The translations under genes were made by a program, and so were the position numbers. A stretch of DNA of 64,000 nt, taken from NCBI RefSeq assembly GCF_024345995.1, contig NZ_JAGQCE010000002.1:186001-250000 (forward strand). The letters run 5' to 3'. The number at the start of each line of letters is the position of its first letter. Positions within the stretch are counted from its first letter, which is position 1. The notes beneath the pieces were generated by a model. The model ran no database searches. It had not been told where the DNA came from and worked only from the letters and a program-made list of their open reading frames with translations. Source of the DNA: Synechococcus sp. Cruz-7E5. Lineage in GTDB: Bacteria > Cyanobacteriota > Cyanobacteriia > PCC-6307 > Cyanobiaceae. Below, in pieces: positions 21,522 through 35,000 of this stretch.

Positions 21522-23933
21522 GTGACCCTCTCAGCCAAGCCGCTTCCAAAGGTCGAACAAGTTGATTTTGTAAATCTCGTGGCAACGCATGCCAGTGGCA
21601 CCGGCTCGGGCCGGCTGCAGGGCGGCCAGATCGGCGCCAACGGCCTGCTGGAGCCTGATTTCCCGCCCACGGCCCCGGCGGCTAACCCCGTTTTTTACCG
21701 CACCTATTCCCGCCGCACCCCAGGCGGCCGCGAGAGCTGGCTCCAGGTGGCCGAGCGCAACCTGGAGGGTCTGCGCCAGCTGGGCCAGCTCAATGCCGAG
21801 GAAGTGGAGCTGATCCGGCGCATGCAGAAGCACCAGCAGGCGCTGCCGTCGGGGCGCTGGCTGTGGATTGGTGGCACCCCCTGGATCGAGCAGCGCCATA
21901 ACTTCTCCGGCGCCTACAACTGCACCTCCACCAACCTGATCGACTGGGAAGCCTTCGGTCTGATGATGGACCTGGCGATGATGGGCTGCGGAACCGGCGC
22001 CATCATCGAGCCGCACCTGATCGAGCGGCTGCCGCTGGTGCGCAACCGGCTGGTGATCGAGAGCGTCAGCCCGATCGGCCTCACCCCCGCCGGAGCGCGC
22101 CAGGAGGCCACCAGCCACAGCATCGATGGCAACCGGGTGTCGATCAAGGTGGGCGACACCCGCCGCGGCTGGGTCGACAGCTACCAGCTGCTGCTGGAGC
22201 TCAGCAGTGATGAGCGCTTCGACGCCGAGACGCCGATCACGGTGAGCGTGGACCTTTCCGATGTGCGGCCGGTGGGCGAAACGCTCAAGGGCTTCGGCGG
22301 CATGGCCAACCCCGTGAAGCTGGGCGACCTGTACGGCCGCGTGGCCCAGATCCTCAACAAGGCGATCGGCCGCCGGCTCAGCTCGGTGGAGTGCTGCCTG
22401 CTGATCGATGAGGCGGCGGTCACGATCGTGGCCGGCAATATCCGCCGCAGCGCCGGCATGCGCCAGTTCTCCGCGGAGGATTCCTCTGCTGCCGGCGCCA
22501 AGGAGAACCTCTGGCAACAGGACGCCGAGGGCAACTGGAGCATTGACCCCGAGCGCGATGCGCTGCGGATGGCCAACCACACCCGGGTGTTCCACAGCCG
22601 CCCTTCAAAAGAAGTGGTGCTGGAGGCGGTGGTCAAGCAGTTCCAGAGCGGCGAAGGGGCAATCCAGTTCGCGCCCGAAGCGATTGCCCGCTCCAATGCC
22701 GACCTGCTGACCACCCCGGAGCTGCGCAGCGAGTTCATCGACATCTATGTGGACCAGGGCCGCGAGGAAGCCGGCCGCTGGTTGCAGCTGAATCATCCAG
22801 AGATCAGTGCCGCCGAGCTGGAGCACCGTCTAGGGCGCTATGGGCTGAATCCATGCGGTGAAATATTGGGTGCTGATTTCCACTGCAACCTGGCGGAAGT
22901 TCATCTGAACCGGATCGATCCGGCTGACCACCAGGCCCAGGCCGATGCGTTCAAGGCTGGCGGCCTGGCGGTGGCCTGCCTGCTCAACCACGACTTCGAA
23001 GTGGAGCGCTACCGCCAGAGCCGCGCCTGGGATCCGATTGTGGGGGTGAGCTTCACCGGCCTGTTCGACTTCTTCGTGCATGCCTTCGGCACCCCTTGGT
23101 TGAACTGGTGGGAGCAGGGCCGCCCTGAAACGGAGCAGGGGCTGAAGTTCAAGGCCCAGGAAGCGGAGTATCTGGGCCGCTGGAAGCAGATCGTGAATGA
23201 AGCGGTGTGGGACTACTGCGACCGCCACGGTCTGCGTCGCCCCAACCGCTGCACCACCGTGCAACCGGCCGGCACCAAGAGCCTGCTCACGGGCGCCAGC
23301 CCCGGCTGGCATCCGCCCAAGGCGCAGCGCTTCATCCGCCGCATCACCTTCCGCAAGAACGATCCGGTGGCGCTGGCCTGTATGGACTACGGCTACACGA
23401 TCGTTCCCAGCCAATCCGACAAGGACGAGCAGGGGCGATTGCTGGATGATCCCTTTGATCCCCGCTGCGGCGAATGGCTGGTGGAGATTCCCACTGAGGT
23501 GAGCTGGGCGAACATCCCGGGCGCCGATGCGGTGGAGATCAACAACTTCTCGGCCCTGGCCCAGTTCGACTTCTACATGCAGGTGCAGAAGCACTACACG
23601 GCCCATAACACCTCCGCCACGGTGGAGTTCCGCGAGAACGAGATCGAGCCACTGGCCGAGGCGATCCACCAGGCGATCGATGGAGGGGAGGGTTACATCT
23701 CGGCGGCGCTGCTGGCCCGCTTCGATGCCAATGCCACCTTCCCGCGGCTGCCGTTCGAGCCGATCGACCAGGCCACTTACACGCGCCTGCAGCAGGAAGT
23801 GGCCGCCCGCTGCCGCACCGCAGATTTCTTTGAAGCGCTGCAGCGTTACGACCAGGGCGAACTGGTGGAAGCTGGACCCGCCGGCTGTGATTCCGACAAG
23901 TGCCTGATGCCCCTGGCCAAACCCGCCTCATGA
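21522..23933 (+). CDS. nrdJ: Class II (adenosylcobalamin-dependent) ribonucleoside-triphosphate reductase
   Basis: A monomeric RTPR-type reductase makes dNTPs using a cobalamin-generated thiyl radical, needing no oxygen-dependent subunit. The 803 residues include GRWLWIGGTPWIEQRHNFSGAYNCTSTN, here cited only by its ends GRWLWIGG and NCTS, the substrate-site NPCGEILGADFHCNL, and the C-terminal cysteine pair in GCDSDKCLMP used for re-reduction. No intein interrupts it. The start is GTG at 21522. Picocyanobacteria typically rely on this B12-dependent enzyme. It is translationally coupled (ATGA) to a small secreted protein. Confidence 0.96.
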   Translation: MTLSAKPLPKVEQVDFVNLVATHASGTGSGRLQGGQIGANGLLEPDFPPTAPAANPVFYRTYSRRTPGGRESWLQVAERNLEGLRQLGQLNAEEVELIRRMQKHQQALPSGRWLWIGGTPWIEQRHNFSGAYNCTSTNLIDWEAFGLMMDLAMMGCGTGAIIEPHLIERLPLVRNRLVIESVSPIGLTPAGARQEATSHSIDGNRVSIKVGDTRRGWVDSYQLLLELSSDERFDAETPITVSVDLSDVRPVGETLKGFGGMANPVKLGDLYGRVAQILNKAIGRRLSSVECCLLIDEAAVTIVAGNIRRSAGMRQFSAEDSSAAGAKENLWQQDAEGNWSIDPERDALRMANHTRVFHSRPSKEVVLEAVVKQFQSGEGAIQFAPEAIARSNADLLTTPELRSEFIDIYVDQGREEAGRWLQLNHPEISAAELEHRLGRYGLNPCGEILGADFHCNLAEVHLNRIDPADHQAQADAFKAGGLAVACLLNHDFEVERYRQSRAWDPIVGVSFTGLFDFFVHAFGTPWLNWWEQGRPETEQGLKFKAQEAEYLGRWKQIVNEAVWDYCDRHGLRRPNRCTTVQPAGTKSLLTGASPGWHPPKAQRFIRRITFRKNDPVALACMDYGYTIVPSQSDKDEQGRLLDDPFDPRCGEWLVEIPTEVSWANIPGADAVEINNFSALAQFDFYMQVQKHYTAHNTSATVEFRENEIEPLAEAIHQAIDGGEGYISAALLARFDANATFPRLPFEPIDQATYTRLQQEVAARCRTADFFEALQRYDQGELVEAGPAGCDSDKCLMPLAKPAS

Positions 23934-24199
23934 GCTGCCGCAGCTGGCCTGCGGGCGTGGTGATCAGTCTGCTGTGCCTGAGCCTGCCTGCCCGGGCCAG
24001 CAGTGATCTCAACCCTGACATCGAGAAGATGTGCCAGGGGCTGGCGGTGATCAACACCGAGCTGGGGGCTACTGCAGCCCCGGGCACACCGATGGGCAAG
24101 CGCATGCAGAACGAGTTGTCGCTCAGCCAGGCTCAATACGGCGCGCTGTGGTCGCTGATGAAGCTCACGCCCACCAGCACCTGCTCCTCTTTGTATTGA
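23930..24199 (+). CDS. Small secreted protein of unknown function, coupled to nrdJ
   Basis: The 89-residue protein starts at the ATG overlapping the nrdJ stop. It has a signal peptide (MSCRSWPAGVVISLLCLSLP, cleavage near ARA-SS) and a mature part of about 65 residues with cysteines at CQGL and TSTCSS, and a helical middle (NELSLSQAQYGALWSLMKL). The coupling to nrdJ may only reflect a compact transcript. I do not recognise the family. It is the last host-like gene before base composition changes. Confidence 0.65.
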   Translation: MSCRSWPAGVVISLLCLSLPARASSDLNPDIEKMCQGLAVINTELGATAAPGTPMGKRMQNELSLSQAQYGALWSLMKLTPTSTCSSLY

Positions 24200-24410
24200 G
24201 TGAATATCTGCTGGGAGGTGGGTTTGCAGACCACGGCTACGGTTGAATAGTCGGTAACTAAAACCTTCGCCCCAGAGGGATTCTTATCTCATCATCCAAA
24301 CCGCCATCGACTGGTTCACGGGAAGGAAAGCCCGTCAGGGATGGTTCACGGAAACCATCCAATATCAAGGTAGGCCTATATTGAGCAATGCTCATCGCAA
24401 CAGAGTGAAG
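24200..24410. repeat. Spacer at the island's left edge with hairpins and a short direct repeat
   Basis: Gene-free 210 bp. It contains a perfect 8-bp stem, GGATGGTT/AACCATCC (24339-24346 and 24353-24360, 6-nt loop), a 5-bp stem ACGGG/CCCGT (24318-24335) and TGGTTCACGG repeated directly at 24312-24321 and 24342-24351. GGTAGGC at 24369-24375 differs by one base from the attC R-box GTTAGGC, but no matching partner box is clear, so I do not call an attC site here. A promoter for the next gene is expected but not obvious. Confidence 0.5.
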
Positions 24411-25241
24411 ATGTCAGCGAATCCCCTCCAGGATGCAAAAGACGGGCTTGTACTGGCTGGGGAGCTGATCAGGCTTGCCGGCGAGGACCCAAAGGCACGT
24501 GAAGCGGCTGCGCATCTAGGCGAAGCGGCAGTAACAATTTCACAAACGATCAACAATGCACTTCTGCCACTCGCGGCTGTAAACTTCGCAATCGAAAAGG
24601 CACGAATATACTTTTCAGAAAGATTTGGAGATGAGCTTTCTGCAAAGGCAGCAAATATACCTGTTGATCAGCTTGTCGAGCCCAAGGCGTCAATTGCTGG
24701 ACCAGCGCTTCAAGGCCTCGCATTTTGCTTTGAAGAAGCAGATCTTAAGGAGATGTATCTGAATCTCCTTGCTACTTCCATGGACAAGCAAGTTGCTTCA
24801 AACGCACACCCAGCTTTTGTAGAAGTCATAAGGCAGTTAAGTGCTGAAGATGCAGCGCTTCTTAAGTCGGTGCTTGCTGGAAAAGCTGGCTCAATCGGTA
24901 TTGTTCGGGCAATTCTTAAAACCGAAGGTAAAGATGGATTTAGTGTACTTCAGAATCATATTCTTAGAACAGCTGATTCTGATGATGATGCTCTAGTGGC
25001 AATTCCTGGCTTAGCGGCAATCGTCGAGAACTGGCAGCGGCTGGGGTTGATCGTGGTTGACTATGCAATAATGCTCGTCGGTGACACGTTGTATGACTGG
25101 GCTGATGACCACCCAGACGTCATACGGTTGAGGGAGGGCAACACACAGAGTGGAAAGGTTGTTGAGTTGGGATTAGGCGTGATGTATCGCACTGATTGGG
25201 GAGAACGATTCGCTAAGGCAGTTGGCCTTTCTGATTCATAA
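24411..25241 (+). CDS. Abi-alpha (DUF4393) family protein, putative abortive-infection gene
   Basis: The 276-residue protein matches the DUF4393/Abi_alpha family. Its central signature runs from VEPKASIAGPALQGLAF through LKEMYLNLLATSMDK to HPAFVEVIRQLSAEDAALL, preceded by an amphipathic helical part (QTINNALLPLAAVNFAIEKA) and followed by a divergent C-terminus. Family members occur in phage-defence loci and prophages; the mechanism is not established. The start at 24411 (MSANPLQDAKDGLVLAGEL) is preferred to a TTG at 24381. GC is visibly lower than in host genes, showing transfer. A 9-bp inverted repeat (25221-25229 and 25247-25255) spans its stop codon. Confidence 0.85.
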   Translation: MSANPLQDAKDGLVLAGELIRLAGEDPKAREAAAHLGEAAVTISQTINNALLPLAAVNFAIEKARIYFSERFGDELSAKAANIPVDQLVEPKASIAGPALQGLAFCFEEADLKEMYLNLLATSMDKQVASNAHPAFVEVIRQLSAEDAALLKSVLAGKAGSIGIVRAILKTEGKDGFSVLQNHILRTADSDDDALVAIPGLAAIVENWQRLGLIVVDYAIMLVGDTLYDWADDHPDVIRLREGNTQSGKVVELGLGVMYRTDWGERFAKAVGLSDS

Positions 25242-25248
25242 GAAGCAA

Positions 25249-25348
25249 GGCCAACCAGTCCACTCCAGCAGGCGGGAAATGCCACTTTCCGGAACCTAGG
25301 AGGAGATCCTCCAAAACACTTTCGCCCGCTGCTGAGAGAGCGTTAGGC
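25249..25348 (+). other. attC-like recombination site after the Abi-alpha gene
   Basis: The 100-bp segment ends in GTTAGGC (25342-25348), a perfect R-box of the integron attC consensus GTTRRRY. It begins with GGCCAAC (25249-25255), a fair match to the partner box. Inside, CTCCAGCAG (25263-25271) pairs with CTGCTGAGAG (25329-25338) with one extrahelical base, and the stem continues through GCGGGAAA against TTTCGCCCG. One bulged base in the L-box and unpaired spacers are hallmarks of folded attC sites. The next gene starts 35 bp later. I did this by eye, without a covariance model. Confidence 0.5.
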
Positions 25349-25383
25349 TTCACAAAAAAACCGCCCGTCAGAGAGGCACGCCA

Positions 25384-27141
25384 ATGGCAATCTTGCTTGA
25401 TTCGGTCGAGATCTCGAACTTCAGATCGGTCTCTAGTTGCGCCCTTCCGCTAAGCACTTACACGCCGATCATCGGCTATAACAACTCGGGCAAGAGCAAC
25501 TCAATCACCGCTATTCAGTGGCTGCTTCGGCGATCGTTGCTTGCGAAAGCAGATTTTCATAGTGCCGCACTGCCCATCGAGGTCGTTGGAACAATCACTG
25601 GCGTTACGGCGGCGCATGTGGCGGAAATGCCTCCCCCTCAGCAGCGGCAGATCACACCTTACATAGCAGGAGAGACGCTGAAGGTGAAGCGCACACAGCC
25701 ACCTACTGCTAGCAAAGCCGGCGAGATCACCCTATCGGTATGGGATCCGACAACATTGTCTTGGAACGCCAATCCAACAGGAATCGACAACGCGCTGGGC
25801 GCCCTACTTCCAGAGCCAATCCGTATTGGCGCGATGGAGAACGCTGCAGAAGACGCGGCAAAGTCGAAGACAACGACCACTATCGGCAAGTTGCTCGCTG
25901 AGTTCATTGCACCGGTCAGAGCGGCCCACGCCGTAGAGCTGTCCGGCTTCCTTCAGGAGATCTCCCGTCGTGTCAGCGCAGATGGCGACATGCGCTTTGC
26001 CGAGCTAGTCACGATCGAGAATCAGATCACAGTCAAGGTCAACGACCTCTTTCCTGGTATTGGCGCGAAGCTGCACTTTCCGGTCCCCGAGCTTGAAGAC
26101 CTCGTCAAGGGCGGCACACTGCGACTTCAAGAGGGCACAAACTCTCCCCGTGACTTTGGCTCGTATGGTCACGGAACCCAGCGTTCAGTGCAGATGGCAT
26201 TGGTCCGGCACTTGGCAGAGGTCCGCCGTGGCGCTGGACCTGGGCTTGGCACGACGCTTCTACTTATCGATGAACCAGAGCTCTACCTCCACCCGTTCGC
26301 TGTAGAGCAAATTCGTGCCGCACTCAAGTCTCTTGGAAGGACAGGATACCAAGTTATCTTTTCGACGCACTCGGCTCAGCTCGTGCCTGCGTCCGATGCG
26401 CAGTTCGCCCTGCTCATGAGGAAAGATGCTGCGCGGGGTACGTATGCCAGGAGTAGGTTGCGTGACGCCATCCAGAGAGCAGTGCCGAACTCGGTTCATC
26501 AGATGGAGCAACTCTTCACTCTTGGGAACTCAAGCCAAGTTCTCTTTGCCGACCGAGTGTTGCTAACTGAAGGAAAGACCGAATTGCGCCTGCTTCCTGC
26601 CATCTATGAGGCCATAGCCGGCCGCAGCCTCGGCCAAGAGCGCTGCGCGCTTGTTGCTCAGAGCGGCGTCAACGACACTAGGAAGTCGACTGAAATCCTC
26701 GCCGCAATGGACGTACCTTGCAAAGCAATTGTCGACTTGGACTACGCGTTCAGTGGAGCAGTCCGCGATGGATACCTGGTAGCTACCGATCCCGACATAT
26801 CTGCATTGAAGCTGGAGTTGGCGTCACTAGCCGCCGCCGGTAGGGTCTCGGTTGGCCCTAACGGCCTGCCTCAGGGCGGAGTCGTTACCTCGGCGCAGGC
26901 ATTCGTTCTTTTAGCACAACATATCGGCGCTCAGCCGCACATAGTTTCTCTTCACTCGAAACTTCTCGCGCAGAACATCTGGCTTTGGCAGCTCGGCGAC
27001 ATTGAGGCGCACTTGGGCCTTGCCGAAAAGTCAGAGCGTGAGTGGGCGCGTTTCAACGTCGATCTAAATACAAGAGGACTGCATGCGGCATGTCCACACC
27101 CTGCATCTATCCAACAAATGCTCGCGTGGGCAATTATGTGA
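25384..27141 (+). CDS. OLD-family ATPase-TOPRIM nuclease (defence-type)
   Basis: The 585-residue protein has an SMC/ABC-like ATPase half with Walker A GYNNSGKS (31-38), a GSYGHGTQRSVQMAL signature-like loop and Walker B LLLIDEPELYLHP (Asp296, Glu297), then FSTHSAQL. The C-terminal half is a TOPRIM domain with Glu396 in LLTEGKTE and DxD at 451-453 (VDLDYAF). This is the plan of OLD nucleases, which cut DNA in phage defence; class 2 members are Gabija GajA, paired with a UvrD-like helicase. No helicase or reverse transcriptase is adjacent, so it is a standalone type or works with its Abi-alpha neighbour. All catalytic motifs look intact. Confidence 0.88.
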   Translation: MAILLDSVEISNFRSVSSCALPLSTYTPIIGYNNSGKSNSITAIQWLLRRSLLAKADFHSAALPIEVVGTITGVTAAHVAEMPPPQQRQITPYIAGETLKVKRTQPPTASKAGEITLSVWDPTTLSWNANPTGIDNALGALLPEPIRIGAMENAAEDAAKSKTTTTIGKLLAEFIAPVRAAHAVELSGFLQEISRRVSADGDMRFAELVTIENQITVKVNDLFPGIGAKLHFPVPELEDLVKGGTLRLQEGTNSPRDFGSYGHGTQRSVQMALVRHLAEVRRGAGPGLGTTLLLIDEPELYLHPFAVEQIRAALKSLGRTGYQVIFSTHSAQLVPASDAQFALLMRKDAARGTYARSRLRDAIQRAVPNSVHQMEQLFTLGNSSQVLFADRVLLTEGKTELRLLPAIYEAIAGRSLGQERCALVAQSGVNDTRKSTEILAAMDVPCKAIVDLDYAFSGAVRDGYLVATDPDISALKLELASLAAAGRVSVGPNGLPQGGVVTSAQAFVLLAQHIGAQPHIVSLHSKLLAQNIWLWQLGDIEAHLGLAEKSEREWARFNVDLNTRGLHAACPHPASIQQMLAWAIM

Positions 27142-27142
27142 A

Positions 27143-27268
27143 TTCTAACCCTTCGTAGGAGTCGACTCGCATCAGCATGGCAATTGGCCCACCTCTCGGA
27201 GTGGTCCTTCATCCGTCCAGCGGGCCGAGCGCCACACCGGCGCTCGCGCCTCAGCTCAATCGTTCGGC
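27143..27268 (+). other. Second attC-like site, after the OLD-family gene
   Basis: Starting one base after the stop codon, TTCTAAC (27143-27149) resembles an R-box and the segment ends in GTTCGGC (27262-27268), which departs from GTTRRRY at one position. Between them GAGTCGACTCGC pairs imperfectly with GCGCCTCAGCTC, and a perfect 7-bp stem GAGCGCC/GGCGCTC lies further in. A length of 126 bp suits large attC sites. A ribosome-binding site and the next start codon follow within 10 bp, as in gene cassettes. The match is weaker than at 25249-25348. Confidence 0.4.
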
Positions 27269-27277
27269 AGGAGGACG

Positions 27278-27661
27278 ATGAAAACTCATGCTGGTTTCCG
27301 CTCGGCAAAGTTTGCGCCCTACGAAGGCGAGGAAGAGAAGATCAATCCGGGTCTCTGGGACCAACGACTTGCCGAATATCTCCTGGCAAAGCTCAAGGAC
27401 CATGGAATCGAAACTCATGAGATGATCCCATAAGACTGGGGACTGTACATCCCCATCAAGAACGACGGATTCCGTCTTGCTCTTTGCTGTGGCCACCAGA
27501 GCGGAGACGCTGACGAGTTCCTGTGTTTTACTAATCCTTGCAAATCGACAATCAGGAAATGGTTCAAAAAGATTGACACGACATCCCAGGTCCGGCGCGT
27601 GGCGGAAGCACTTGAGAAGATTCTTGGGTCCGACCCGGATATCCGAGACGTCAATTGGTGA
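27278..27661 (+). pseudogene. Small conserved gene broken by a single in-frame TAA
   Basis: From ATG 27278, with CAGGAGG just upstream, the frame reads MKTHAGFRSAKFAPYEGEEE and continues for 51 codons to MIP, then TAA at 27431-27433. The same frame then reads DWGLYIPIKNDGFRLALCCG and GDADEFLCFTNPCKSTIRKW and ends at a TGA (27659-27661). Read through the stop it is one coherent 127-codon protein, in a family I know only as uncharacterised. A Glu codon (GAA) changed to TAA would explain the break. No frameshift is needed. The first half could still be made as a 51-residue peptide. Confidence 0.75.
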
Positions 27662-27902
27662 ACAGAACAATCAAACTGATTCTCGATGAACCGCCTGGAA
27701 TGCTATGGCTCGTTCCATGCCAGTGTCTAGGCGGGGATAAACACATTTCAATTCCCCGAAACCCAGACTGCTGATCTACTCCGAGAAGCTCAAGCCTGCG
27801 TGCATCTCCTTGCCGCAACCTCTGGGCGGAGTTCATCGTCGATCAGCCTTGCCCAGCTCGTAAGCCTGCTGGCATCCTGAGAGAACAGAACTCCTCTCCC
27901 CG
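27662..27902. other. 241-bp spacer before hsdM
   Basis: No gene found. It holds an imperfect hairpin with outer stem CCGCCT/AGGCGG (27691-27696 and 27729-27734) and inner GGAA/TTCC. I looked for a third attC-like site after the broken gene and did not find matching R-boxes. A promoter for the restriction-modification operon is expected here but no convincing hexamers stand out. Confidence 0.5.
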
Positions 27903-29693
27903 TTGACCTACGCCGCTGAGAACCCACTGAGCGACGCCGGACGCAACGACGACCTCGCCGACGAGTTCCTCGGCGCCCTCGAAGCCCTGGGCGGATCCGC
28001 TGGCAACGGCCGCCTCCGCGAAACCCTGGAGTGGGACGAAGCCAGCTACGAAGCGGTGAAGGCTGATCTGTTGAGCCGACGGCTGATCGTGCCTGGCCGG
28101 GGTCGCGGTGGCTCGGTGGCCCTGGCGGATGGGTCGGCAGTGGAAGCCTCAGGCAACGGCCAAGCCGCCAGCCGCGCCCCCCGCACCCGCGCTCCCAACG
28201 GTTCCCGCGCCGCCTCGGCCCCCAGCTCCTTCGAGCAGGCGTTCCGCGCCATCGACGACTGCCTGCGCAAGGAGGCCGGCTGCGGCACCGAGCTCGACTA
28301 CACCGAGCAGACCTCCTGGCTGCTGTTCCTCAAGTACCTCGACGGGCTCGAAGACGACAAGGCCGCCGTGGCTGCCCTGGAGGGCCGCAGCTACGCTCCC
28401 ATCCTGGAAGAGCCCTACCGCTGGAACAGCTGGGCGGCACCGAAGACCGCCAGCGGCCAGCTGGATCACCACGCCGCCCTCACCGGCGACGACCTGCGCG
28501 ACTTCGTGAACCAGCGCCTGTTCCCTTACCTGGAGCGCTTCAAGCAGCGCGCCAGCGGGCCGAACACGATTGAGTACAAGATCGGCGAGATCTTCGGTGA
28601 ACTGCGCAACAAGATCAGCAGCGGCTACAACCTGCGCGAAATCATCGATGTGATCGATGGTCTGCGCTTCCGCTCCCAGGCCGAGAAGCACGAGCTCTCG
28701 ATGCTCTATGAGGAAAAGATCAAGCGCATGGGCAACGCCGGCCGCAACGGCGGTGAGTACTACACGCCCCGGCCGCTGATTCGCGCCATCGTGCAGGTGG
28801 TGAACCCGCAGATCGGCGAGTCGGTCTACGACCCGGCGGTGGGTTCCGCCGGCTTCCTGTGCGAAGCGTTTGAGTTCATGCGCAAGGGCGGTGCCGAGGG
28901 GCGCGAACTGAGCACGGAGGATCTGGAGACGCTGCAGTCGCGCACCTTCACCGGCAAGGAGAAGAAGAGCCTCGCCTATGTGATCGCGATCATGAACATG
29001 ATCCTCCATGGCATCGAGGCGCCCAAGGTGCTGCACACCAACACCCTCACCGAAAACCTCAGCGATGTGCAGGAGCGCGACCGCTTCGATGTGATCCTCG
29101 CCAATCCGCCGTTTGGCGGCAGTGAACGCAAGGAGGTGCAGCAGAACTTCGAGATCCGCACCGGCGAAACCGCTTTTTTATTTTTGCAGCACTTCATCCG
29201 CCTGTTGCGCGCGGGCGGCCGCGCCGGCGTGGTGATCAAAAACACGTTTCTCTCCAACACCGACAACGCCTCGGTGGCCCTGCGCCAGAAGCTGCTGTCC
29301 GATTGCAACCTGCACACGGTGCTCGACTGCCCCGGCGGCACCTTCCAGGGCGCGGGTGTGAAAACGGTGGTGCTGTTCTTCGAGAAGGGTGCGCCCAGCC
29401 ACAAGGTGTGGTTCTACCAGCTCGATCCCGGCCGCAACCTTGGCAAAACGAACCCCCTTAACGACCGCGACCTGGCGGAGTTCGTGGAGCTGCAGAAGTC
29501 GTTTGCCGACTCGCCCAAGAGTTGGAGCGTGGCGATGGACTCCATTGATCCAGAGAGCTGGGATCTTTCGGTGAAGAACCCCCATGGGGGAGAGGCGGTG
29601 GCGCTGCGGAGCCCGCAGGAGATCATGGCAGAGATCGTGTCGCTGGATGCGGAAAGTGCGGAGGTGCTGGGGAGGATCAGGGCGTGGGTATGA
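27903..29693 (+). CDS. hsdM: Type I restriction-modification system DNA methyltransferase subunit HsdM
   Basis: N6-adenine methyltransferase that pairs with HsdS to protect host DNA. The 596 residues have a winged-helix-like N-terminal extension (about 15-75), an Ala/Pro-rich linker, the HsdM N-domain (SFEQAFRAIDDCLRKEAGC, TSWLLFLKYLDGLE) and the methyltransferase domain with GEYYTPRPLIRAIVQVV, the SAM-site DPAVGSAGFL and catalytic NPPF (401-404). The likely start is TTG at 27903. It overlaps hsdS by ATGA. GC is higher than in the cassette-like part to its left, so the locus was probably acquired separately. Confidence 0.95.
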   Translation: MTYAAENPLSDAGRNDDLADEFLGALEALGGSAGNGRLRETLEWDEASYEAVKADLLSRRLIVPGRGRGGSVALADGSAVEASGNGQAASRAPRTRAPNGSRAASAPSSFEQAFRAIDDCLRKEAGCGTELDYTEQTSWLLFLKYLDGLEDDKAAVAALEGRSYAPILEEPYRWNSWAAPKTASGQLDHHAALTGDDLRDFVNQRLFPYLERFKQRASGPNTIEYKIGEIFGELRNKISSGYNLREIIDVIDGLRFRSQAEKHELSMLYEEKIKRMGNAGRNGGEYYTPRPLIRAIVQVVNPQIGESVYDPAVGSAGFLCEAFEFMRKGGAEGRELSTEDLETLQSRTFTGKEKKSLAYVIAIMNMILHGIEAPKVLHTNTLTENLSDVQERDRFDVILANPPFGGSERKEVQQNFEIRTGETAFLFLQHFIRLLRAGGRAGVVIKNTFLSNTDNASVALRQKLLSDCNLHTVLDCPGGTFQGAGVKTVVLFFEKGAPSHKVWFYQLDPGRNLGKTNPLNDRDLAEFVELQKSFADSPKSWSVAMDSIDPESWDLSVKNPHGGEAVALRSPQEIMAEIVSLDAESAEVLGRIRAWV

Positions 29694-30886
29694 AGGAAGG
29701 ATGGCAGACAAGGCAGCTGGGTGAAATCTGCGAAATCGAACGGGGAGGTTCACCTCGCCCAATTCAGAATTACCTATCTGCTGACTCGAATGGCATCAAC
29801 TGGATCAAGATTGGAGACGCGACAGCGAGCGGCAAATACATCTACAAAACAGAAGAGAAGATAAAGCCTGAGGGCGCTAGGCGTTCGCGAGTTGTTTACG
29901 AAGGCGATTTCATCCTATCGAACTCGATGAGTTTCGGCCGGCCATACATCATGAAAACCACGGGTTGCATTCATGATGGATGGCTTGTGTTGCGCCAACC
30001 AAAAGTCGATCCAGAATACCTTTATTACGTTCTTAGTTCTGATCTGGTGTTTAGCCAGTTTGATCGACTTGCGGCGGGCAGCACCGTTAGGAATCTCAAC
30101 ATCGGATTGGCAATGTCCGTTGAGATTCCATACCCCCCACTTCCCGAACAGCAGCGAATCGTCGCCCTGCTCGACGAAGCGTTTGCGGGCCTCGCCACCG
30201 CCAAAGCCAACGCCGAGCGGAACCTTCAGAACGCCCGCGCGCTCTTTGAGAGCCATCTTCAATCCGTATTCAGCCGGCGCGGGGAGGGGTGGGAGGAGAA
30301 ACAACTTAGAAACTTCTGTGCTTTTGAGAATGGAGATAGAGGCTCGAACTATCCATCAAAGAAGGCCAGAAGTGCAACGGGGATTCCCTTCATTAATGCA
30401 GGCCATCTGACAGACGATGGACTTGATCTCGCAAATATGGACTACATTCCGAGAGAGCGTTTCGACCTGCTGAGCAATGGCAAGATACGTGCAGGAGACA
30501 TCCTCTTCTGCCTGCGCGGTTCGCTCGGAAAGTTTGCATGCGTCGGTGATTTGACCGAAGGCGCAATCGCCTCATCTTTGGTTATCGTGCGCCCTGATGA
30601 AACAGCCTTGAATGAGTATCTCATCGCATACTTCAGAAGCTCACTTTGTGCAAGTATGATCAATGAATTTAAGAATGGTACTGCTCAGCCTAATTTGTCC
30701 GCCCGAAGCCTTGGCGATTTCGTTGCGCCCCTTCCACCACTTGCCGACCAGAAGTTGATTGTTAAGGAGCTCGCCGACCTCCGTCAAGAAACCCAGCGCC
30801 TCGCCAGCATCTACGAACTCAAACTCGCCGCCCTGGAGGAACTCAAGAAGACCCTCCTGCACCAGGCGTTCAACGGCGAACTCTGA
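29690..30886 (+). CDS. hsdS: Type I restriction-modification specificity subunit HsdS
   Basis: DNA-recognition subunit. The 398 residues hold two target-recognition domains, each starting with the usual motif: WQTRQLGEICEIERGGSPRP (about 5-24) and WEEKQLRNFCAFENGDRG (about 202-219). Each is followed by a conserved helical spacer, PLPEQQRIVALLDEAFAGL and PPLADQKLIVKELADL. Both half-site modules are complete, so the enzyme should recognise a bipartite sequence that cannot be predicted here. AT-richer target-recognition domains between GC-rich helices suggest swapping of specificity segments. Confidence 0.94.
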   Translation: MKEGWQTRQLGEICEIERGGSPRPIQNYLSADSNGINWIKIGDATASGKYIYKTEEKIKPEGARRSRVVYEGDFILSNSMSFGRPYIMKTTGCIHDGWLVLRQPKVDPEYLYYVLSSDLVFSQFDRLAAGSTVRNLNIGLAMSVEIPYPPLPEQQRIVALLDEAFAGLATAKANAERNLQNARALFESHLQSVFSRRGEGWEEKQLRNFCAFENGDRGSNYPSKKARSATGIPFINAGHLTDDGLDLANMDYIPRERFDLLSNGKIRAGDILFCLRGSLGKFACVGDLTEGAIASSLVIVRPDETALNEYLIAYFRSSLCASMINEFKNGTAQPNLSARSLGDFVAPLPPLADQKLIVKELADLRQETQRLASIYELKLAALEELKKTLLHQAFNGEL

Positions 30887-30992
30887 GCCCCAGGCTTTGG
30901 CCTCCAGTTCATCGCGCCTTCAGCCCTCCAACCAGTTCAGACGCTGCCATGACGGCTGCGTAGGCGACCTGCTGGCACCTCGCCGCGCTGTC

Positions 30993-31262
30993 TTACCGGT
31001 CGTGAACCCTGCAGGCCAGGATCACAAGAAGCTCGCCATCCAACCGATAAACCAGCCGGCGCTCTTCATCGATGCGGCGCGACCAGCAGCCGGCCAGGTT
31101 TTCCCGCAGGGGCTCGGGTTTGCCGATGCCAGCGAAGGGATCGCGCAGGCAAGCCTGGATCAGCTGGTTGATGCGTCGCAGCTGCCTGCGGTCCTGGCTC
31201 TGCCAGTGGAGGGTGTCGTCCCAGGCGGCAGCCGTCCAGGCCAGCCGCTCAATCGCCGGCAT
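30993..31262 (-). CDS. yoeB: YoeB/Txe-family toxin
   Basis: RelE-superfamily, ribosome-dependent mRNA endonuclease of 89 residues. Family features are WQSQDRRQLRRINQLIQ, the PEPLRENLAGCWSRRIDEE segment with catalytic Glu and Arg, RRLVYRL, and the C-terminal ACRVHDR. The active-site His is kept, but the Tyr that usually follows it is Asp here, so activity may be reduced. It overlaps the upstream yefM by 14 bp on the same strand, the normal antitoxin-toxin order. The pair lies opposite in direction to the flanking hsd genes. Confidence 0.88.
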   Translation of the reverse strand: MPAIERLAWTAAAWDDTLHWQSQDRRQLRRINQLIQACLRDPFAGIGKPEPLRENLAGCWSRRIDEERRLVYRLDGELLVILACRVHDR

Positions 31263-31524
31263 CGGCCAGATCCGGATCGATCAGCCCATGGGAAAGGAGC
31301 TCCCCACGCCCGGCCTGCTCCAGCGACCGCTGCAGATGGGCCGCATTGGCCGGGGAACGCAGCAGGTGCACGGTTTCCATCAGGCTGTTGTATGTGTCGA
31401 GCGACATCACCACCGCCCCCTTGGCGTGCCGCCGGGTGATCAGGGTCACGTCTGCATCGGCCTCCACCCGATCCAGCACGGCCTTGAAGCTCTCCCGGGC
31501 CTCCGAAAAGCTGACCACCTGCAT
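31249..31524 (-). CDS. yefM: YefM/Phd-family antitoxin
   Basis: The 91-residue antitoxin starts MQVVSFSEARESFKAVLDRV and has the Phd/YefM DNA-binding fold with ITRRHAKGAVVMSLDTYNSL, then a flexible C-terminal tail that would wrap the toxin. The ATG at 31524 is preferred. An in-frame Met at 31548 and a far longer frame exist, but they do not match the family. Such proteins usually repress their own promoter, here within 31525-31560, which is shared with the divergent DUF429 remnant. Confidence 0.88.
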   Translation of the reverse strand: MQVVSFSEARESFKAVLDRVEADADVTLITRRHAKGAVVMSLDTYNSLMETVHLLRSPANAAHLQRSLEQAGRGELLSHGLIDPDLADAGD

Positions 31525-31560
31525 GGTGTTGTCCAATAACCTGTACATCAGGCTAGCTGG

Positions 31561-31689
31561 GTGGAGGGCGTGGCCGCTGTGACCGTCCCCACCCTGACCG
31601 TCCCCACCGTGATCGGCATCGACGTGGGCGGCCCCCGCAAGGGCTTCCACGCCGTGGCACTCACCGCTGGCGCCTATGGCGGCCAGAAG
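31561..31689 (+). pseudogene. Remnant of a DUF429 (RNase H-like) gene
   Basis: The frame beginning at GTG 31561 contains PTVIGIDVGGPRKGFHAVAL then TAGAYGG, which is the N-terminal strand-loop of DUF429 proteins (normally IGID-G-GKRKGFHAV...). After about 43 codons the similarity stops and the frame runs on meaninglessly into the next gene. Intact members have over 200 residues, so this is a 5-prime fragment. A 12-bp direct repeat CTTTTCCTGCAT (31701-31712 and 31724-31735) sits right at the breakpoint and may mark the deletion or insertion. Confidence 0.6.
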
Positions 31690-31796
31690 CGCGGGCTCGG
31701 CTTTTCCTGCATCCGCCGGCCTACTTTTCCTGCATTGGAGGTGCCACATCCCTGGGCTGAACTGCCTTGGGGCGATGTTCTCCCTAGCCTGAGTCG

Positions 31797-32219
31797 ATGG
31801 CCGATGCAGACGTCCGCTGGCGCCAGCGGTTCGACAACTTCGAGCGGGCCCTCCAGGTGCTGGAGCGTGGCGTGGCTCTGGCGCGCCAACGGCCGCTGAC
31901 TGAGCTGGAGCAGCAGGGCCTGATCCAGAGTTTTGAGTTCACCCATGAACTCGCCTGGAATCTGCTGAAGGACTATCTGCAGCACCAGGGGATCACCGGC
32001 CTCATCGGCTCGCGGGATGCCACCCGTCTGGCGTTCCAGAACGCACTGATCAGCGACGGCGAGGGTTGGATGGCGATGATCAAGGCCCGCAATCAGTCTT
32101 CGCACACCTACAACCTCGAGCAGGCCCAGGCGATCGCCCGCGATGTGATCGATTGCTATGCGCCGTTGTTCGGTGCCCTACGGAATCGGTTCTCGGCCTT
32201 GAGCCAGCTGCCGTCATGA
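31797..32219 (+). CDS. HepT-like HEPN-family toxin (HI0074 type)
   Basis: An all-helical 140-residue protein of the group called nucleotidyltransferase substrate-binding. It carries RNQSSHTY at residues 98-105, exactly the RX4HXY motif of HepT RNases, where the Tyr is the site of AMPylation by the partner MntA in characterised pairs. EFTHELAWNLLKDYLQ is a second family hallmark. It overlaps the MNT gene by ATGA. Toxin activity is inferred from family and motif. Confidence 0.85.
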   Translation: MADADVRWRQRFDNFERALQVLERGVALARQRPLTELEQQGLIQSFEFTHELAWNLLKDYLQHQGITGLIGSRDATRLAFQNALISDGEGWMAMIKARNQSSHTYNLEQAQAIARDVIDCYAPLFGALRNRFSALSQLPS

Positions 32220-32563
32220 CCGTGCGTCCTCCCCCGGCCACAGCGCAGGCGATCGGCCTGCCGGAAGCGGCGGTTGGGGCCATCCAACAGGTGCTCGCCA
32301 GCCACCCCGAGGTGGAAGCCGCGATCCTCTACGGCTCCCGCGCCCTCGCTCGCCACCGCCCCGCCTCCGACATCGATCTCACCCTGATCGGCCCCGCCAT
32401 CAACGCCGCCGCCCTGGCCCGCATCGATGCCGATCTCGACGACCTGCTGCTGCCCTGGATGATCGATCTCTCCGCTTACAGCGCGATTCGTCATCCCGCC
32501 CTGCTGGAGCACATCCAGCGGGCCGGCCTGGAGCTATACCGCCGGCCGGATGGGCCAGACTGA
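32216..32563 (+). CDS. MntA-like minimal nucleotidyltransferase antitoxin (HI0073 type)
   Basis: The 115-residue protein has the nucleotidyltransferase motif GS at 40-41 and DxD at 52-54 (GSRALARHRPASDIDL), i.e. GSX10DXD, as in MntA antitoxins that neutralise HepT by adding AMP. Its start overlaps the HepT-like stop. The metal-binding Asp residues are intact. It ends 30 bp before hsdR, so this pair and hsdR probably share a transcript. Confidence 0.87.
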   Translation: MTVRPPPATAQAIGLPEAAVGAIQQVLASHPEVEAAILYGSRALARHRPASDIDLTLIGPAINAAALARIDADLDDLLLPWMIDLSAYSAIRHPALLEHIQRAGLELYRRPDGPD

Positions 32564-32593
32564 TCCCATGGCGCCCTCGGCCTCCCTGCTGCC

Positions 32594-34939
32594 ATGAACG
32601 AGGCCGAAACCCGCGCCGAGCTGATTGATCCGCTGCTCGCTGCCGCTGGTTGGGGCGTGGTGGAGGGCAGCCGCATCCGCCGCGAGTTTTCGATCACCCA
32701 GGGGCGCCTGCAGGGCGGTGGCCGGCGCGGTAAGTCCCTCAGCGCCGACTACGTGCTGATCCACCGCAACACCAAGCTGGCGGTGGTGGAGGCCAAGGCC
32801 GATTCCCTGCCGCTCAGCGAAGGCGTGGGCCAGGCCAAGGAGTATGCCGCCAAGCTCCAGATCCGCTTCACCTACGCCAGCAACGGCAAGGGCGTCTACG
32901 CCATCGATCGCGCCACGGGCGAGGAGGGGGAAGTCGATGGCTTCCCCAGCCCCCAGGAGCTGTGGCAGCGCACCTTCGCGGTCGAGAACGCCTGGCGCGA
33001 TCGCTTCGCCGCCATCCCCTACCCCGACAAGGGCGGCAGCTGGCAGATCCGCTTCTACCAGGAGATCGCCGTCACCCAGGTGCTGGAGGCGATCGCCGCC
33101 GGCCGCAACCGCATCCTGCTCACCCTGGCCACCGGCACCGGCAAAACCTCGATCGCCTTCCAGATCCTCTGGAAGCTGTTTGCCGCCCGCTGGAACCTCT
33201 CCGGCGCACCCACGCGCCGACCCCGCATCCTGTTTCTGGCCGATCGCAACAACCTCGCCGATCAGGCCTTCAACGACTTCACCGCCTTTGCCGCCTTCGA
33301 AGAGAACGCCCTGGCGCGGATCGAACCGGGCGACCTGCGCAAGAGGGGCCGCGTGCCCACCAACGCCAGCGTGTTCCTCACCATCTTCCAGACCTTCATG
33401 AGCGGCCCGCCGGTGGACGGCAAGCCCTCCCCCTGGTTCGGCCAGTACCCGCCCGATTTCTTCGACTTCATCGTGATCGACGAATGCCATCGTGGCGGTG
33501 CCAACAACGAATCCACCTGGCGCGGCATCCTCGAATACTTCGCCCCCGCCGTGCAGCTGGGCCTCACCGCCACCCCCCGCCGCCAAGGCAACACAGACAC
33601 CTACGCCTACTTCGGCGAGCCGGTGTACAGCTACTCGCTCAAGGAGGGCATCAACGACGGCTTCCTCACGCCCTTCCGCGTCAAGCAGATCAGCACCACC
33701 CTCGATGAATACATCTACACCCCCGACGACACGGTGGTGGAAGGGGAGATCGAGGCCGGCAAGCTCTACAAGGAGGCCGATTTCAACAAGATCATCGAGA
33801 TCGAGCGGCGCGAGCGGGAACGGGTGCGCATCTTCATGGAGCAGATCGATCAGCGCCAGAAGGCGATCGTGTTCTGCGCCACCCAGGACCACGCCCTGGC
33901 GATCCGCGACCTGATCAACCAGCTCAAAAGCAGCACGGATCCCAACTACTGCCAGCGGGTCACTGCCAACGACGGCGAGCTGGGCAACACCTGGCTGCGC
34001 GCCTTCCAGGACAACGAAAAGACGATCCCCACCATCCTCACCACCTCTCAGAAGCTCTCCACCGGTGTGGACGCCCGCAATGTGCGCGCCATCGTGCTGC
34101 TGCGGCCCGTGAACTCGATGATCGAGTTCAAGCAGATCATCGGCCGCGGCACCCGCCTGTTCGATGGCAAGGACTATTTCACGATCTACGACTTCGTGAA
34201 GGCCCATCACCACTTCAGCGATCCGGAGTGGGATGGGGTGGTGGAGCCTGATGTGATTGATCGCCGTTCGCCGTCTCCTGCTGATCCCACTGAGGCCAAG
34301 GCGGACGTCAGCGCGGAGACCGAGGAACCCGAGGGGCGCCCGCCCCGCCCCGCCAAGGTCTGCATCAAACTCGGCGATGGCAAGGAGCGCTCGATCCAGC
34401 ACATGCTGGTCACCTCCTTCTGGCATCCCGATGGCCGGCCGATGAGCTCCCAGCAGTTCATCGAGTGCCTCTATGGCCAGCTGCCGGAATTCGTGAAGGA
34501 TGAGGCCGAGCTGCGTGAGCTCTGGAGTGCGCCCGACACCCGCCGCCGCCTGCTGCAGGGGCTGGAGGAAAAGGGCTTCGGCGCCGAGCAGCTGGCGGAG
34601 ATGCAGCGCATCATCGATGCCGAAAACAGCGATCTGTTCGATGTGCTCGCCCACGTGGCCTATGCCCTGCCGCCCATTCCCCGCGAGCAGCGGGCCGGCA
34701 ACGCCCGCCTCTACATCCACTCCCGTTTCACCAGCAAGCAGCAGGTGTTCCTCAACTTCGTGCTGCAGCACTACGTGAGCACGGGGGTGCAGGAGCTGGC
34801 CCAGGAAAAGCTCACGCCATTGCTGCGTCTCCGCTATCAGAACAGCATCGCCGATGCCGTTGCAGATCTCGGCAGGCCAGAAGACATCGGCCAGCTCTTT
34901 TCAGGCTTCCAGAGGTATCTTTATGAGGCCACTGCCTGA
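32594..34939 (+). CDS. hsdR: Type I restriction enzyme R subunit HsdR (EcoEI-type)
   Basis: Motor and nuclease subunit. The 781 residues have an N-terminal PD-(D/E)xK nuclease with Asp52, Glu66 and Lys68 (VVEAKAD), a superfamily 2 motor with TGTGKT (180-185), DECH at 296-299, LTATPRR and IIGRGTRLF, and a C-terminal domain of the EcoEI R type. It is shorter than EcoR124-type HsdR but normal for this group. It is separated from hsdM-hsdS by 1.7 kb holding two toxin-antitoxin pairs. The nuclease and motor residues look functional. Confidence 0.94.
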   Translation: MNEAETRAELIDPLLAAAGWGVVEGSRIRREFSITQGRLQGGGRRGKSLSADYVLIHRNTKLAVVEAKADSLPLSEGVGQAKEYAAKLQIRFTYASNGKGVYAIDRATGEEGEVDGFPSPQELWQRTFAVENAWRDRFAAIPYPDKGGSWQIRFYQEIAVTQVLEAIAAGRNRILLTLATGTGKTSIAFQILWKLFAARWNLSGAPTRRPRILFLADRNNLADQAFNDFTAFAAFEENALARIEPGDLRKRGRVPTNASVFLTIFQTFMSGPPVDGKPSPWFGQYPPDFFDFIVIDECHRGGANNESTWRGILEYFAPAVQLGLTATPRRQGNTDTYAYFGEPVYSYSLKEGINDGFLTPFRVKQISTTLDEYIYTPDDTVVEGEIEAGKLYKEADFNKIIEIERRERERVRIFMEQIDQRQKAIVFCATQDHALAIRDLINQLKSSTDPNYCQRVTANDGELGNTWLRAFQDNEKTIPTILTTSQKLSTGVDARNVRAIVLLRPVNSMIEFKQIIGRGTRLFDGKDYFTIYDFVKAHHHFSDPEWDGVVEPDVIDRRSPSPADPTEAKADVSAETEEPEGRPPRPAKVCIKLGDGKERSIQHMLVTSFWHPDGRPMSSQQFIECLYGQLPEFVKDEAELRELWSAPDTRRRLLQGLEEKGFGAEQLAEMQRIIDAENSDLFDVLAHVAYALPPIPREQRAGNARLYIHSRFTSKQQVFLNFVLQHYVSTGVQELAQEKLTPLLRLRYQNSIADAVADLGRPEDIGQLFSGFQRYLYEATA

Positions 34940-34966
34940 TGCGCCTGACGCGCCAGCCATGGCTTG

Positions 34967-34983
34967 CTTACACTTACATGTAG
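34967..34983 (+). promoter_or_regulatory. Palindrome/tandem hexamer upstream of the DJ-1/PfpI gene
   Basis: CTTACA occurs twice in tandem (34967-34978) and runs into the 8-bp palindrome TACATGTA (34975-34982), 18 bp before the ATG at 35001. The AT-rich palindrome in a GC-rich setting looks like a repressor site for a transferred gene whose regulator stayed behind. No regulator gene is adjacent. Confidence 0.35.
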
Positions 34984-35000
34984 ACAGAATCGAGCAGAAC

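Follow-up and report, generated by a model that had tools for sequence, protein, structure and literature searches.

We found that the Abi-alpha (DUF4393) gene and the OLD nuclease gene of this genome are, with a probability of roughly 0.87, two independent gene cassettes standing in tandem at an attI-type site behind nrdJ, with no integrase adjacent. The predicted sites show the array order attI, gene, attC, gene, and the edges of the inserted DNA fall at predicted core sites. The earlier note had suggested either a two-gene system or two independent defense cassettes lying together, and the second of these is supported literally, as integron gene cassettes.

Layout of the locus

The window, i.e., the whole stretch of 64 kb that was analyzed, lies on contig 12 of a draft genome of 3.155 Mb in 31 contigs. 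Judged by its genes, among them those for a ferredoxin-thioredoxin reductase beta chain on contig 29 and for a CPP1-like protein in the window, the genome looks cyanobacterial. On the plus strand, an nrdJ-like gene for a B12-dependent ribonucleotide reductase (21522 to 23933, with the Pfam RNR-II insertion domain), present in all nine same-genus genomes, forms the left flank and is followed by a small ORF and by the attI-type site (24312 to 24373). Both genes named in the earlier note are present on this strand, each with family matches: Abi-alpha, the first gene after attI, at 24411 to 25241 or from a possible alternative TTG start at 24381, and a Class 1 (P2-type) OLD ATPase-nuclease of 585 amino acids at 25384 to 27141. 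The gap between them is 142 nt and holds an attC site (25249 to 25348). Judged from the core sites, the first cassette would span 24370 to 25342 and the second 25343 to 27262, with a putative decayed attC of the OLD cassette (27143 to 27268) recognizable by its ends only.

Outside the insert, a small ORF (27278 to 27658) that is interrupted by a single TAA at 27431 is shared with the array of the relative G002 at the same address, where two parts of it have 78% and 85% amino-acid identity (L091); it has no Pfam family over the cutoff. Type I restriction-modification genes follow at 27903 to 34939. The description of Abi-alpha as the only neighbor of OLD in the same direction had thus omitted these genes, the small ORF, and the att sites. 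Between hsdS and hsdR (30993 to 32563), we also observed genes for a YoeB-like toxin and a Phd/YefM-like antitoxin on the minus strand, as well as a nucleotidyltransferase and its substrate-binding partner.

Third-position G+C was 0.42 in Abi-alpha and 0.61 in OLD against 0.84 in nrdJ, so that both genes look foreign, and unlike each other. An Rfam scan of 23000 to 35000 returned one chance match only, and a promoter scan of 23900 to 25500 gave no excess over shuffles.

An attC site separates the two genes

The attC collection was drawn from integron integrase loci, an integrase match at E 1e-40 being found in 34 of the 99 genomes searched, the present one included. The covariance model built from it, R1, comprises 25 attC sites, 17 from the same genus (one from this genome) and eight from other genera of the family. 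RNAalifold predicted 12 stem pairs on these sites, nine of them with a compensatory change; the R-box pairs were added by hand when R1 was built. Its sole significant match in the 64 kb was at 25249 to 25348 on the plus strand (24.7 bits, E 1.4e-4, equivalent to 0.007 at whole-genome scale), with the only other match at E 3.7 and with 7.9 bits for the opposite strand of the same site. The boxes are R'' GGCCAAC (25249 to 25255) and R' GTTAGGC (25342 to 25348), with L boxes CTCCAGCAG and CTGCTGAG assigned by script. The single-strand fold was no better than those of shuffles (z -0.28).

Across the genome, the R1 search, which scored 150 of 2,795 candidates and lacked at least two locally found sites, gave 21 matches up to E 0.007, the next one having 15.2 bits. 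Among the 21, the window site scores lowest, the other 20 ranging from 30.0 to 64.1 bits. A further site, L095:5317-5417 (33.9 bits), was found by the local R1 search only, and a palindrome at L100:2284-2341 scored 24.2 bits on one strand and 23.4 on the other in a local search, so that 24.7 bits is not decisive by itself. The window site was recovered at 5/7 complementarity as well as by R1. A regular-expression finder requiring 6/7 R-box complementarity was discarded, as it missed this site, which pairs at 5/7.

The first bases of a cassette complement its own R'' box at the 3' end. At the 3' end of OLD, TTCTAAC stands 1 nt after the stop and GTTCGGC at 27262 to 27268, and the cassette ends match at 5/7; R1 with its filters off found nothing significant there (fold z -0.95). 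The partial match and the undetected stem suggest that the attC of OLD itself has probably decayed. Just past the stop, the first bases are similar to those in L046, which at 66% is the closest relative.

Among 13 OLD relatives from a genome scan, complementary cassette ends at 7/7 were found by script in four (L046, L047, L049, and L055) and by eye in a fifth (L050), in which a frameshift near the end moves the stop. Four to five of the 13 therefore look like single-gene cassettes. By script and eye, the other eight have cassette ends in part (L048), at the 3' site only (L056), or below 6/7 (L051 to L054, L057, and L058). Control ORFs from the same loci reached 7/7 in none of 169 cases and 6 in three, and 27 of 5,200 random frames reached 6 or more. 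An integrase lies near OLD in L047. Four OLD relatives on IMG/VR contigs had no evident cassette ends by eye. The L055 relative (192 to 1937), in a Candidatus Eisenbacteria metagenome-assembled genome, is flanked on either side by complementary cassette ends; OLD cassettes may therefore reach beyond Proteobacteria.

Genes standing directly before other attC sites of the own genome include a NucS-like nuclease (L011:6061-6807, PADLOC PDC-S02), an Mrr-like endonuclease (L013:5984-6820), a protein kinase whose best PADLOC match is mad6, followed by PD-T4-6 (L101:3422-4459), a protein with weak DACNV/DAC-domain matches (L097:1057-2334), and one with no match (L094:5021-6343). These are possible further anti-phage genes.

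The attI-type site and the nrdJ address

The window attI consists of the direct repeats TGGTTCACGG at 24312 and 24342, a small hairpin, and then a core at 24369 to 24375. A sequence model from 11 attI sites, R2, from which the window was excluded, matched the 64 kb only once, at 24312 to 24373, just before Abi-alpha (32.8 bits, E 3e-9). A pair of direct repeats followed by a core also stands just after integrase genes. In the own genome, six R2 sites lie below E 1e-6 and the next at 0.056 (150 of 2,001 candidates scored). For each of the five that could be tested, an attC follows on the same strand within 1.5 kb, one of these attC sites having been in the R1 training set, and the sixth attI lies about 300 nt from a contig end.

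Comparison with relatives places the edges of the insert. Homology with the nrdJ locus of the relative G006 runs to 24373, the end of the attI match, while that with G002 is lost at 24203 and restarts at 27259, 3 nt before the core-like GTTCGGC at 27262; the left and right junctions thus come from two different relatives, no single one giving both. As these edges fall at predicted core sites, the extra DNA comprises Abi-alpha, attC, and OLD.

An attI lies downstream of nrdJ in seven of the nine same-genus genomes, six of these sites having been in the R2 training set and the window site not. G008 has no attI within 1.5 kb after nrdJ, and in G001 only about 580 nt of contig remain beyond nrdJ, too few for a decision. 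The roughly 1.5 kb upstream of each of the seven sites yielded no detectable integrase remnant. An attC follows in all six loci where the sequence continues, and the first gene is different in each: Abi-alpha in the window, MazE/MazF-like genes and then a predicted pPIWI-associated nuclease in G006, an Rce1-like (CPBP-type) membrane protease in G002, a methyltransferase in G003 (with a weak attC of 25.8 bits more than 300 nt after the gene), an HSDR_N-like protein in G004, and a RelA/SpoT-domain protein matching PADLOC PDC-S33 in G005. This variety suggests continued turnover at the address.

The OLD nuclease is of the single-gene class

The OLD protein has AAA and OLD-like TOPRIM domains and a full-length match to PADLOC Old (730.7 bits). 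Among phage proteins it matches P2 Old best (37.3% identity over 95%), and its best PDB match is 6p74, an OLD-family endonuclease that excerpts of two papers describe as the Class 1 OLD of Thermus scotoductus (PMC7049728, PMC10568477). All 11 residues given as required for P2 Old killing in the available text of PMC7049728 have the same letter here in one MAFFT alignment, the last three (P2 D541, E543, and K550) lying near the C terminus, where the alignment is less certain; at the D541 position, four OLD relatives in the alignment differ from P2. The earlier claim that the ATPase and TOPRIM residues are retained holds with that qualification for the last three.

The earlier note was also right that no UvrD-like helicase or reverse transcriptase adjoins OLD, at least among the proteins scanned. 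Its remark that OLD lacks the partners of known systems does not point to an anomaly, given the likeness to P2 Old: P2 Old is the archetype of Class 1, whose members PMC10568477 describes as single genes, so that neither a helicase nor a reverse transcriptase would be expected beside it. According to that review, Class 1 genes do not lie near other candidate defense genes, which is a description rather than a strict criterion and from which the window OLD departs with Abi-alpha before it and restriction-modification genes after it. The window OLD thus resembles phage P2 Old and Class 1 OLD in length, domains, the 11 residues, and the lack of a dedicated partner, but differs in its 37% identity and in being cassette-borne and near other defense genes.

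At E 1e-60, PADLOC Old was found in one of 400 genomes of the family, the present one. A search at E 1e-100 through 369 genomes from the class to which the Salinivibrio record belongs found it in that genome alone, which makes such OLD genes rare in that sample, and PLSDB plasmids had no OLD match at E 1e-20. A 2026 report, as far as its available text goes, describes anti-phage phenotypes for the isolated Escherichia coli OLD gene ybjD (PMC13261556); beside it, cassette-borne OLD genes that travel singly would be natural further candidates.

Abi-alpha as a probable cassette gene

The Abi-alpha protein matches PF14337 (Abi_alpha) with 134.7 bits against a curated cutoff of 29 (E 5e-39), as well as PADLOC PDC-S47. 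A single-sequence AlphaFold prediction was uninformative (mean pLDDT, 39). The earlier note had called this a family with an anti-phage association and no known mechanism. This stands for the mechanism, but a phenotype had already been published: in Enterococcus, according to the accessible part of PMC6356687, a single gene of this family is enough to abort infection, with cells lysing prematurely and phage Idefix being blocked. The window protein and that of Enterococcus faecalis prophage 6 share the Pfam family and the single-gene state and are similar in length (276 and 272 amino acids), and differ in that the present one would belong to another phylum, is cassette-borne, and is known from sequence.

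PF14337 at E 1e-10 occurred in three of 201 family genomes, and three of the four copies in the family are followed by attC. In the window, attC begins 7 nt after the stop; in G214, the stop lies inside the attC edge; and in G056, no attC was found after the gene. IMG/VR contigs contained one relative, and PLSDB plasmids gave three distant matches at E 1e-5. The own genome has a second, truncated Abi-alpha of 212 amino acids on contig 28 (7768 to 8406, in L015:7226-9639), which stands after an integrase C-terminal remnant and has an attC of 61.6 bits 168 nt downstream. Beyond that attC lie a small ORF pair recalling VapBC and another attC of 46.2 bits.

Independent cassettes, a defense pair, or chance neighbors

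The two genes are adjacent, on one strand, and from defense-linked families, as they would be in a true two-gene system in which Abi-alpha senses or sets the trigger and OLD cuts DNA; yet we consider such a system highly improbable. An attC lies within the gap of 142 nt, the base compositions differ, and relatives of each gene act alone in print (Enterococcus Abi-alpha in PMC6356687, and P2 Old in PMC7049728 and PMC10568477, as far as these texts were available). PF14337 was found in none of the 13 genomes with OLD relatives, although the profile was also silent in 14 control genomes, while it finds both copies in the own genome; no Abi-alpha was present in the 17 OLD loci examined. PADLOC Old and PF14337 occur together in the own genome only (400 and 201 family genomes searched, respectively). 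The DUF4393/OLD adjacency, whose conservation the earlier note had proposed to check, was therefore seen here only, within the genomes searched, an outcome that the note itself had named as refuting. The genes might instead be chance neighbors in a defense island and the att-like sites meaningless repeats, a reading that fits the restriction-modification genes downstream, the nonsignificant attC fold, and the palindromes reaching similar R1 scores. It is improbable, however, in view of the strand-specific attC match (24.7 against 7.9 bits), the expected order of attI and attC, the junctions with two relatives at core sites, and the near-fixed distance of the attI motif behind integrase genes.

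On the preferred reading of two independent cassettes, Abi-alpha and OLD would be neighbors because both were captured at the same site, and not because they work together. The integrase that inserted them would have been encoded at another place, either in this strain or in an ancestor, and each gene would act alone. OLD would most likely work like P2 Old, as a dimeric ABC ATPase coupled with a TOPRIM nuclease that uses two metals, which by analogy with P2 may attack DNA once the RecBCD pathway of the host is disturbed by an invader; the host genome encodes RecC (E 2e-66). Abi-alpha would most likely abort infection by premature lysis, as in Enterococcus. The two could still be co-transcribed or mutually helpful.

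Candidate docking sites without an adjacent integrase

At E 0.001, R2 found 26 attI-type sites in the nine same-genus genomes. In 12 of them, an integrase or its C-terminal piece ends 100 to 118 nt before the R2 match, nine of these 12 being outside the R2 training set. No integrase was detected within about 1.5 kb upstream of the other 14, four of which (L124, L125, L129, and L130) are weak, with less than 28 bits; L124 does have an integrase on its contig, 4.4 kb upstream. If the four are set aside, 12 sites have an integrase and 10 do not. An attC follows on the same strand within the locus at 14 of the 26 sites, some of these attC sites having been in the R1 training set, and the loci L110, L126, and L128 end within 300 nt of attI. 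In G008 (C39), the attI-type site behind an integrase gene is touched by an opposite-strand attC (L071:14093-14184, 51.5 bits).

At the window locus (L134), no integrase was detected within about 1.5 kb on each side. The integrase matches over the cutoff in the own genome are on contigs 29 and 13, and integrase fragments are common. The contig 29 integrase has about 48 residues fewer than an aligned relative of 362 amino acids, and the window attI core begins with GGT where the 11 training sites have GTT; both suggest, as does the undetected 3' attC of OLD, that the window array may be frozen.

Two views of these sites seem conceivable, neither of which we rate as high as even odds. The genus may run a distributed integron, with attI docking sites scattered over the chromosome, many of them without an adjacent integrase and used by one or a few integrases that act in trans, and with defense cassettes at several fixed addresses, one of them behind nrdJ in most species, rather than in one long array; we propose this tentatively. 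As a variant of the cassette reading, the window array may be a relic of an ordinary integron that lost its integrase long ago and whose attI was never used in trans, which is a similarly doubtful prospect: it agrees with the altered attI core and the common integrase fragments, but the seven nrdJ-side sites show no integrase remnant within about 1.5 kb upstream, yet the first gene is a different one in each of the six readable sites.

Relation to known integrons

CALINs are attC clusters lacking an integrase. The present locus resembles them in its attC sites without an integrase beside them, but differs in having an attI-type site, at the same chromosomal place in seven of the nine same-genus genomes. 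Integrons in cyanobacteria are known in general, as the available parts of PMC2426708 and PMC3108266 indicate. Chromosomal and mobile integrons with anti-phage cassettes, including those of Vibrio, have been described (Darracq 2025, Kieffer 2025, and Getz 2025, via excerpts of the review PMC12409362). These likewise have attC-bearing single defense genes next to attI, whereas here the genome looks cyanobacterial, no integrase lies beside attI, the cassette gene encodes a 585-amino-acid OLD nuclease, and several small arrays are scattered over one genome. The titles and abstracts among the literature matches listed contained no report of OLD as an integron cassette or of dispersed integrase-less attI sites, which is not proof of novelty.

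What had been supposed to be a new defense pair thus becomes a case of defense genes travelling as single cassettes, with docking sites genome-wide in the genus. If integrases act on these attI sites in trans, the usual model of a single integrase next to a single array would have to be broadened.
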